From assembly GCA_949289855.1 (NCBI GenBank), contig CASEPS010000014.1, positions 1 to 41,846 on the forward strand: a stretch of DNA of 41,846 nucleotides, given 5' to 3'. Each line of letters opens with the position of its first letter. Positions within the stretch are counted from its first letter, which is position 1. Shown piece after piece: positions 31,810-34,193 of the stretch. Made by a program: the position numbers and the translations under genes. This DNA is from an uncultured Erysipelotrichaceae bacterium (lineage in GTDB: Bacteria > Bacillota_I > Bacilli_A > Erysipelotrichales > Erysipelotrichaceae). The notes beneath the pieces were generated by a model. That model saw only the letters and a program-made list of their open reading frames with translations. It was not told the origin of the DNA and ran no database searches.

Positions 31810-33033
31810 TTACTGTTTATTATTCCGGTCAAAGCTCATACCGCCTTCACCAGGATTGCCAAACTCCTTGCGATAGGCATCCTGCTTTGTGATGACATCA
31901 ATCAGTTCCGAAGGCAGATAGACAAATACCGGCCCAAACGGATTAATGACAAGACCCTGGTGGCCCTTCCACATGATGTTGACGGCATCCTGGAAAGTGA
32001 TACCTAATGTGGATGGCTGCTTGCCAGAACGGAATAGCTGTTTCCAGCCTTTGAGTGCTTCCATATCTGTAAACAAGGCAAATGTACGTACTTCCTTGCC
32101 ACTATCCGAGCGGTTTACACCCATAAACCCAATCTTTGTATCCTGGGAAAAACCGACTTTGCCATTGATGACACTTGGCGCATGTTCCATCATGACCGGT
32201 ACCGTGAAACGGCTGTGGGTGAGCACACGGATAAAGCGTGTCATGAATTCATGTTCACGGCTGTAGCGGGCATATTCATATGTCATGCCATAGAGCAGTG
32301 GGTTTTCCACATTGATGGCAGGTTTGTCATCCGTTGGCAGAATGCTCGAAATAACCGCAAAGTGAAGATCATCTGTATTCACATTCTTCAACCCATCAAG
32401 AGACAACTGAACACTTTCATCTTTTGCAGTAGCAGCCGTGATGCCACCTTTTGAAACAGATGCAATACGGACACGCTTTGTATTGCCATCAGAAAATAAC
32501 AATACCGCAAGGTCTCCCACCTTGATTTCACCATGGACAATGCCTTCCACATGTACTTGTTCATCCTGTATGACATTGGTGATCATCAATGTATAGCGGC
32601 GGTTTTCCTTATTTGTATATACCGTTTCTCTTTTCAGCACATTCTCTATACGCGTTGCCTTAAGATCAATCGGTACAACTTTCTTCTGGAAGATAACCAG
32701 AGCAACCATCACCAGCACCATGCTAAGGAGATTTCTATACAGTGCAGATGGATCATTCACACTATTGACAAAGTTGTTCATGGCGAAGTAGATGCACACA
32801 AGCATCATTGCCCAGAAAATGTAGGCATGAGGCAGTTTCTTTGCATCAATGGCACCAAGTATTGCACATTGCTTATAAAAGGAAACCACTAGACAGCCTA
32901 CACCAAGCAATGTAATCAAAGCATATGCCATGGTCGCTGCTGAACGATAACCAGTCAGCAATAACATGAGACCACCATACACAGCAAGTCCCATGCCAAT
33001 CATATTTACATACACAATCCATTTGTTCTTCAT
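31810..33033 (-). CDS. Four-helix membrane protein with C-terminal SseB domain
   Basis: 407 residues. Four N-terminal membrane helices (about 7-27, 32-52, 69-87, 101-117), then a beta-rich middle region (about 140-232; GIVHGEIKVGDLAVLLF resembles a translation-factor-type beta barrel), then an SseB-family domain (about 265-385: VPVMMEHAPS, FALFTDMEALKGW, AVNIMWKGHQGLVINPFGP). The large part after helix four is probably cytoplasmic. SseB domains occur in secretion and signalling proteins of unclear biochemistry. The start lies 3 bases after a BlaI-type regulator, so the two form an operon. This three-part combination is not one I recognise. Confidence 0.8.
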   Translation of the reverse strand: MKNKWIVYVNMIGMGLAVYGGLMLLLTGYRSAATMAYALITLLGVGCLVVSFYKQCAILGAIDAKKLPHAYIFWAMMLVCIYFAMNNFVNSVNDPSALYRNLLSMVLVMVALVIFQKKVVPIDLKATRIENVLKRETVYTNKENRRYTLMITNVIQDEQVHVEGIVHGEIKVGDLAVLLFSDGNTKRVRIASVSKGGITAATAKDESVQLSLDGLKNVNTDDLHFAVISSILPTDDKPAINVENPLLYGMTYEYARYSREHEFMTRFIRVLTHSRFTVPVMMEHAPSVINGKVGFSQDTKIGFMGVNRSDSGKEVRTFALFTDMEALKGWKQLFRSGKQPSTLGITFQDAVNIMWKGHQGLVINPFGPVFVYLPSELIDVITKQDAYRKEFGNPGEGGMSFDRNNKQ

Positions 33034-33036
33034 AGG

Positions 33037-33390
33037 CTATATCGTATATCTGCGTATAATGTTCAAAAGTCTGCCTGCATCGAGCCGGGAAATACCATCA
33101 TGGGCAAAATAGCTTTCCAGAAACTGGGCAAGTGAACCCTGATAGTTTGTCTCTATGAAAGACTTAGCCCAGTCATGGTAATACCTGCCACGCTCCACTT
33201 TCATATAGAGCCTGCTGTCACGGTTTTCCAGCATTTCCTTATCGCGCATTCTCTTGATCAGTGTAAAGACAGTAGACTTCTTCCAGGCATAGTTGCTTTC
33301 ACAAAGCTTCACCAGCTGCATGGAACCAATACCCGGATTTGCCCAGACCCATTCAGCGATCTTCATTTCTGCCTCGCTCATCATACGCAT
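33037..33390 (-). CDS. BlaI/MecI/CopY-type transcriptional repressor
   Basis: 117 residues from the ATG 5 bases after GGAGG; the frame is open further upstream but that part covers the promoter. Winged-helix N-terminus with the BlaI pattern SEAEMKIAEWVWANP, recognition region WKKSTVFTLIKRMRDKEML and wing RLYMKVERGRYYHDW, then a helical dimerisation tail. Family members repress an operon until a membrane sensor-protease (BlaR1/MecR1) inactivates them. No BlaR1 is present; the next gene is a membrane SseB protein. Confidence 0.88.
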   Translation of the reverse strand: MRMMSEAEMKIAEWVWANPGIGSMQLVKLCESNYAWKKSTVFTLIKRMRDKEMLENRDSRLYMKVERGRYYHDWAKSFIETNYQGSLAQFLESYFAHDGISRLDAGRLLNIIRRYTI

Positions 33391-33409
33391 CATTTCCTCC
33401 ATTGAGATT

Positions 33410-33438
33410 AGTCTACAGTTGTCAATCATGTTAGTCAA
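33410..33438 (-). promoter_or_regulatory. Promoter of the BlaI-SseB operon with possible operator
   Basis: -35 TTGACT (33438-33433), 17-base spacer, -10 TAGACT (33415-33410). The spacer contains ACAACTGTAG, a loose match to the TACA...TGTA half-sites used by BlaI/CopY repressors, and GACTAA occurs twice. Autoregulation is likely but the operator is imperfect. Confidence 0.55.
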
Positions 33439-33439
33439 A

Positions 33440-33468
33440 CAAAAAGAATCCCGATCATTCAGGATTCA
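33440..33468 (-). terminator. Terminator of tcdA
   Basis: GAATCC/GGATTC stem with a 10-base loop followed by TTTTTG on the minus strand, just after the tcdA stop. Confidence 0.8.
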
Positions 33469-33476
33469 TACATTGT

Positions 33477-34193
33477 TCACATTTCCAATAGTTTCTCTAC
33501 CACTTTAGAGGCAATGAGAAGCCCTGCTGCAGGTGGCACAAAAGCACTGCTGCCAGGTATAGAACGTTTACCTTCTGGCACTTCTTCTGTACTTTGTTCC
33601 TTTGCATGGATTGGCAGTTCTTCACTATAGACAACAGATAGTTTATCTATACCAAGTTTTCTCAGTTCTCGTCTCAGGACTTTCGCCAATGGATCATTCT
33701 TTGTCTTGAACAGGTCTGTATAAACAAGCTTTGAAGGGTCCAGGCGGTTACCGCATCCCATGCTGGAAATGATGGGAATGTTTTCTTCACGCGCTGCTTT
33801 AATGATATCTATCTTGGCTGATACCGTATCAATGGCGTCTACAATAAAGTCCCACTCTCTAAAAGGAAAGTCACCCCGCTTCTCTGGCAGATAGAAAACC
33901 GGATAAAAATTCACCTGAATAGAAGGATCAATGTCATGTATCCTTTCCTTTGCGACATCACATTTCAGCTTTCCAACAGTACTATGCAAAGCATAGATCT
34001 GCCGGTTGAGATTAGTCAGCGAAACATCATCATGGTCAATCAGATCAAGTGTTCCTACACCACTTCTTGCCAATGCTTCTACAACATATCCACCTACGCC
34101 ACCAATACCAAAGATGGCAACTCTTTTGCTTCTCAGTTTTTGAAATGCTTCATTTCCAATAAGCATCTGAAATCTTGCATATTGATTTGTCAT
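33477..34193 (-). CDS. tcdA: tRNA threonylcarbamoyladenosine dehydratase
   Basis: ThiF/E1-like enzyme that cyclises t6A37 of tRNA to ct6A using ATP. 238 residues. Adenylation-domain motif AIFGIGGVGGYVVEALARSG (about residue 26), DHDDVSLTNLNRQ about 53, and DFIVDAIDT about 115. The late SVVYSEE segment is typical of TcdA rather than MoeB/ThiF, and the zinc CxxC pairs are absent, also as expected. No tight neighbours; predicted near-leaderless transcript. Confidence 0.9.
   Translation of the reverse strand: MTNQYARFQMLIGNEAFQKLRSKRVAIFGIGGVGGYVVEALARSGVGTLDLIDHDDVSLTNLNRQIYALHSTVGKLKCDVAKERIHDIDPSIQVNFYPVFYLPEKRGDFPFREWDFIVDAIDTVSAKIDIIKAAREENIPIISSMGCGNRLDPSKLVYTDLFKTKNDPLAKVLRRELRKLGIDKLSVVYSEELPIHAKEQSTEEVPEGKRSIPGSSAFVPPAAGLLIASKVVEKLLEM

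Follow-up and report, generated by a model that had tools for sequence, protein, structure and literature searches.

BlaI-type repressors usually guard antibiotic-resistance genes together with a sensor-protease partner, and have mostly been described either through their cleavage by BlaR1 in beta-lactam resistance or, in the case of CopY, through metal binding. The locus considered here raises the question of what such a repressor does, and how repression would be relieved, when the adjoining gene encodes a membrane protein with an SseB domain. The gene pair is found in a stretch of 41,846 nucleotides (the window) corresponding to contig CASEPS010000014.1 of an uncultured Erysipelotrichaceae bacterium (GCA_949289855.1). 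The reading favored here, to which about an even chance of being correct is assigned, is that the locus represents an autorepressed repressor-effector unit formed after an exchange of partners, with the SseB protein serving as cargo. What is new is BlaI repression with an exchanged partner, in a small lineage, the repressor family itself being already known.

Both genes are encoded on the reverse strand, with the repressor gene upstream and the SseB gene (31810..33033) downstream. The repressor open frame spans 33037-33438 and is separated from the downstream gene by 3 bases. As such, the ORFs, together with the Pfam matches and the AlphaFold2 model presented below, agree with the preliminary description of a BlaI-type repressor lying 3 bases from a four-helix SseB protein of 407 residues. 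The repressor start given there, at 33438, had to be abandoned, however, as the TTG at this position is not a start codon but instead begins the -35 hexamer TTGACT. The likely start is the ATG at 33390, as judged from a suitably placed GGAGG (33396-33400) and from the starts of related repressors, with which this position is consistent. The repressor gene would accordingly extend over 33037..33390 and encode 117 residues. Directly upstream, a ThiF/TcdA-family gene (33477-34193) is followed by a hairpin and T tract resembling a terminator (33446..33467, reverse strand), such that the repressor-SseB pair probably constitutes its own transcription unit. In the motif scan, where two terminator-like hairpins were found and 1.1 were expected in shuffled sequence, promoter-like and terminator-like sites were about as numerous in shuffles; both features rest on their position rather than on scan statistics.

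Comparison of 70 genomes of the genus and 315 genomes of the order revealed the pair to be kept in three of the 70 congeneric genomes, namely that of the window (G000), G145 and G189, and nowhere else among the 315 genomes of the order. Conservation in other genomes, proposed earlier as a check, was thus found, with the carriers being three gut-type Erysipelotrichaceae species of a single lineage. In the genus, the SseB membrane protein was detected in 44 of the 70 genomes and a BlaI relative in 27. Instead of the 3-bp gap of G000, the repressor and SseB genes of G145 and G189 have overlapping starts. The carriers share pfl genes upstream of the pair; on the other side, glutamate dehydrogenase is encoded in G000 and G189, and an M18 aminopeptidase is encoded next in G145 and G189, while the M18 gene of the window's genome is located elsewhere. 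The literature search returned no paper combining SseB, BlaI and operon. Between the ThiF/TcdA-family gene and the pfl genes, the window also contains a Fic-family gene (PF02661; 34305-35372, reverse strand) that was not seen at the corresponding place in G145 or G189. In a Lachnospiraceae MAG (L167:4085-5762), a ThiF/TcdA-family gene overlaps an SseB-protein gene, although the proximity of the two families is possibly due to chance.

The repressor matched Pfam Penicillinase_R (PF03965) with an E-value of 2.3e-13 (51 bits; cut-off 22.6), the match covering profile positions 2-114 of 115, namely, the whole of the winged-helix and dimerisation region, and its best relatives among solved structures in the PDB were MecI and BlaI. 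Assignment as a copper repressor was also considered, given that the operator described below would fit, yet was rejected. The repressor sequence includes neither a C-terminal Cys nor a Cys-X-Cys metal-binding motif, and the match to the NCBIfam CopY_TcrY profile was confined to the DNA-binding part and scored 34.8 bits, as opposed to a cut-off of 122.

Upstream of the repressor gene, a TTGACT-17-TAGACT promoter was assigned at 33410..33438 (reverse strand) on the basis of its position, the operator that it contains and the like layout of the G145 repressor promoter (TTGACG-17-TAGACT), as consensus matches of this kind are equally common in shuffled sequence. Overlapping the -10 element is a putative operator, ATTGACAACTGTAGAC (33411..33426, reverse strand), that exactly matches RNYKACANNYGTMRNY, the 16-base consensus proposed for CopR-CopY repressors, and that differs at two bases from the operator quoted for Streptococcus pneumoniae CopY, ATTGACAAATGTAGAT (PMC7253601). 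The exact consensus occurs only once in the 41.8-kb window. Judged by sequence match, a dyad of the TACA-NN-TGTA class is thus present at the repressor's own promoter. In G145, an exact 16-bp match likewise lies just upstream of the repressor gene, over the like promoter. In G189, where a small ORF lies just upstream, the 0.37 kb nearest to the repressor gene yielded no match, a point that counts against the favored reading. The locus thus resembles CopY/CopR systems in its nearly identical operator and in employing a repressor of the BlaI fold that would operate without a protease, yet differs from them in having no C-terminal Cys-X-Cys and no copper exporter in the unit.

There are 30 exact operator sites in the genome of the window and 19 in that of G145, corresponding to about one per 78 kb and one per 130 kb, respectively. 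By our own arithmetic, a site would fall by chance within a given 60-base stretch with a probability of roughly 8e-4 in G000 and 5e-4 in G145, the two promoters sharing descent. A wide regulon was considered and rejected. The approximately 30 exact matches in the genome are no more than those to a reversed control pattern, which gives no indication of a large regulon, and of the sites in the nine genomic match regions inspected, nearly all fall within coding frames, with one being situated upstream of a surface-protein gene on contig 66. A local unit fits with what was described for Clostridium thermocellum, where BlaI repressors are autoregulatory and control very small regulons (PMC8457756). 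Control by a riboswitch or other structured RNA was likewise rejected, as no Rfam match was found in the window.

The 407-residue protein was next considered. An AlphaFold2 model based on 17 sequences (mean pLDDT 73) placed membrane helices at residues 2-26, 32-58, 64-91 and 95-119, such that the four-helix region (residues 2-119) corresponds to 32677..33030 on the reverse strand. Counts of lysine and arginine in the loops of 28 relatives put the N- and C-terminal parts inside and revealed the outer loops to be very short. The soluble domains are therefore predicted to lie in the cytoplasm, and hardly any of the protein would be exposed outside. The beta-rich middle (residues 140-232), for which structure prediction had been suggested, was modeled as a barrel at residues 148-229 (32347..32592, reverse strand; mean pLDDT about 90-96) that aligned with EF-Tu domain 2 in VIA-align with Z 13-13.7 and an rmsd of 1.6-3.2 A, and with Z about 13.5 and an rmsd of about 1.7-2.5 A over 86-91 residues. 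In the model, the barrel is of the EF-Tu domain-2 fold (PF03144). The GTP_EFTU_D2 profile gave weak matches in 4 of the 28 relatives (best E 2e-4), and G168 and D174 are invariant, consistent with this fold.

The C-terminal part comprises the SseB domain (residues about 243-396; 31846..32307, reverse strand), matched by PF07179 at residues 259-378 (E 5e-12; 46.6 bits; cut-off 21) and found in 27 of 28 relatives at E <= 0.05. This domain occupies residues about 243-391 in the full AlphaFold2 model, while a separate model of the domain reached a mean pLDDT of 80. With the latter, VIA-align best matched TTHA0547 (Z 7.8) and gave weak matches to Tic22 structures (Z 4.2 and 3.8); Foldseek returned no PDB match for the domain alone at E <= 0.001. 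A published HHpred profile search ties SseB to Tic22-type peptide-binding chaperones, although that paper confuses the protein with the SseB of Salmonella SPI-2 (PMC9503650), which shares the name but is unrelated to the PF07179 protein. The Escherichia coli enhanced-serine-sensitivity protein SseB, whose gene adjoins the aminopeptidase gene pepB, shares the SseB N-terminal domain (PF07179), whereas in the protein encoded in the window, this domain is preceded by four membrane helices and a barrel resembling EF-Tu domain 2 within a single polypeptide. Soluble homologues comprising an EF-Tu-domain-2-like N-terminal segment, the SseB domain and a C-terminal extension were noted in Lachnospiraceae (L159-L166), with query residues 170-421 being aligned; Pfam names only the SseB part.

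The locus shares with BlaI-BlaR1 and MecI-MecR1 the repressor family (PF03965), a TACA/TGTA dyad over the promoter and an arrangement in which the second gene of a two-gene unit encodes a membrane protein, yet the partner here has neither an M56 metalloprotease nor an extracellular sensor domain. Direct reading of the 407-residue sequence confirmed the reported absence of HExxH, with no Pfam match to M56 being obtained either. A BlaR1 homologue elsewhere in the genome, anticipated in the preliminary description as a possible controller of this repressor, does exist. The single M56 gene of G000 adjoins its own BlaI gene on contig 13, thereby forming a complete classical BlaI-BlaR1 pair (HELLH), and cross-talk is thus possible in the window's species alone. 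Were the contig 13 BlaR1 to cleave the window repressor, the pair would be an extra branch of the classical beta-lactam response. That the contig 13 operators share the TACA-NN-TGTA core agrees with such an arrangement and speaks against the favored reading. Nonetheless, no M56 gene was found in G145 (89% complete) or G189 (92% complete), although both contain the pair. Moreover, BlaR1 cleaves BlaI between Asn101 and Phe102 and its S1' pocket accommodates Phe (PMC9834060), whereas the P1-P1' residues are S-Y in the window repressor, as opposed to A-F in its contig 13 counterpart. A role for the contig 13 BlaR1 is hence considered very improbable.

The same position was compared across the genus. 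Of 15 repressors whose M56 partner is known, 13 retain the P1' Phe, whereas all seven repressors without such a partner have lost it, a pattern rather than a set of independent events, since the sequences are related by descent. The SseB-paired repressors of G145 and G189 have S-C and S-A, respectively, while the P1' residue is Y in the four repressors paired with M23 hydrolases. Such loss of the cut-site Phe is compatible with loss of a proteolytic release step. Because two carriers are without an M56 gene and the BlaR1 cut site has not been preserved, the pair is taken to be independent of BlaR1, and any relief of repression must therefore take another route. The earlier proposal that signal relay, if any, would involve a different mechanism holds in this respect.

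In a phylogenetic tree, the three SseB-paired repressors formed one clade (support 100/99), with repressors paired with PcsB-like M23 hydrolases as the sister group (83/80) and M56-paired repressors falling outside both; the M56 label of row G188_4230 was given by default because the neighbor lies beyond the contig end. A search of the 315 genomes of the order revealed no closer repressor outside the genus, and the neighbors of those repressors inspected there were M56-type or unrelated genes. In the M23-paired loci (L088-L091, from G150, G160, G158 and G181), the BlaI relative is followed by a gene for a PcsB-like coiled-coil/M23 hydrolase, and the promoter contains two dyad operators, exact or with one mismatch, ahead of the repressor gene. 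These loci putatively encode a repressor-controlled cell-wall hydrolase with no BlaR1 alongside. An apparent M56 match at these loci was rejected by Pfam and is an artefact, because one of the queries, the BlaR1 of G178, combines M56 and M23 in a single fusion protein. In G178 (L092:5362-7176), this BlaR1-type protein, in which an M23 peptidase domain of the LytM type is joined to the M56 sensor protease, is encoded directly behind the BlaI gene, and could plausibly reflect a step towards an M23 partner.

The distribution of the SseB family bears on what the protein does in the pair. In the genus, the family is found nearly always without an adjoining repressor (about 40 relatives), and aminopeptidase genes often follow sseB (15 of 43 loci include an M29 gene and 11 an M18 gene). 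One explanation would be adjacency without a functional link, the repressor having been inserted at the start of a pre-existing sseB locus, where it acts on itself only and sseB is transcribed by read-through. The sseB locus is indeed older and more widespread than the pairing, and all three carriers are without the M29 peptidase that relatives commonly encode there, as might be expected after local rearrangement. Yet the pair and its gene order were kept in three species despite their SseB proteins being only 36-43% identical, and translational coupling and a single shared promoter also argue for a link, such that mere adjacency appears improbable.

The SseB protein could instead serve as a non-proteolytic anti-repressor, with its cytoplasmic barrel and SseB domains binding the repressor at the membrane and releasing it upon a signal, such as a peptide ligand, in a feedback pair. 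The tight coupling of the genes (a 3-bp gap here and overlapping starts in G145 and G189), their co-conservation in three species and the predicted cytoplasmic location of both domains would suit such a role. Precedent comes from MecR2, which is likewise no protease, is encoded together with a MecI-type repressor and interferes with DNA binding by MecI through direct contact. MecR2, however, is described as acting via a dimerisation domain of its own that accompanies a DNA-binding domain (PMC3406092), and not as a membrane SseB protein. Against this, the approximately 40 relatives without an adjoining BlaI mean that repressor binding cannot be the general job of the SseB family, while in the nearest BlaI relatives, the position of sseB is taken by M23 hydrolase genes. 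An anti-repressor role is accordingly seen as rather unlikely. More specifically, it is unlikely that the membrane EF-Tu-domain-2/SseB protein senses cytoplasmic peptides or amino-acid state, holding and releasing the repressor without proteolysis as a new anti-repressor signaling pair.

Since most relatives have SseB without a repressor and the sister clade has a hydrolase in that position, the SseB protein is more likely to be output than sensor. Of the undescribed regulator-sensor pair proposed earlier, the pair itself was confirmed and recurs in three species, whereas the sensor half found no support, given a family widespread without BlaI, domains predicted to be cytoplasmic and nearest BlaI relatives coupled to cell-wall hydrolases, which have the look of regulated output. 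A sensor function is possible but not supported by the present evidence.

In the favored reading of an autorepressed unit, the BlaI-type repressor would bind the CopY-class dyad over its own -10 element and so hold blaI-sseB expression low. Relief of repression would come from a ligand, from another protease or simply from the repressor becoming diluted, rather than from BlaR1-type proteolysis, and the membrane-anchored SseB protein would be the regulated output. The latter would present its EF-Tu-domain-2-like barrel and Tic22-like, presumably peptide-binding SseB domain at the inner face of the membrane. Gene neighbors and weak fold matches make peptide or amino-acid handling the best guess for its role. 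That the pair is limited to three species of one lineage weighs against this reading.

In this genus, one repressor clade is found with three partner types (M56, M23 hydrolase and SseB membrane protein), and the BlaR1 cut site has decayed in those repressors that have no M56 partner. Such a natural series allows one to ask by which route BlaI-type repressors are released in the absence of BlaR1. The SseB pairing suggests that the repressor family can exchange both target and release mechanism. At the same time, the uncharacterised SseB domain becomes tied to a protein that is anchored in the membrane, contains an EF-Tu-type barrel and is putatively regulated. Finally, elsewhere in the window's genome (contig 66; L213:4828-4843), an operator-like dyad, GTCTACATATGTAACT, was noted upstream of a gene encoding a large surface (adhesin/pilin-like) protein.
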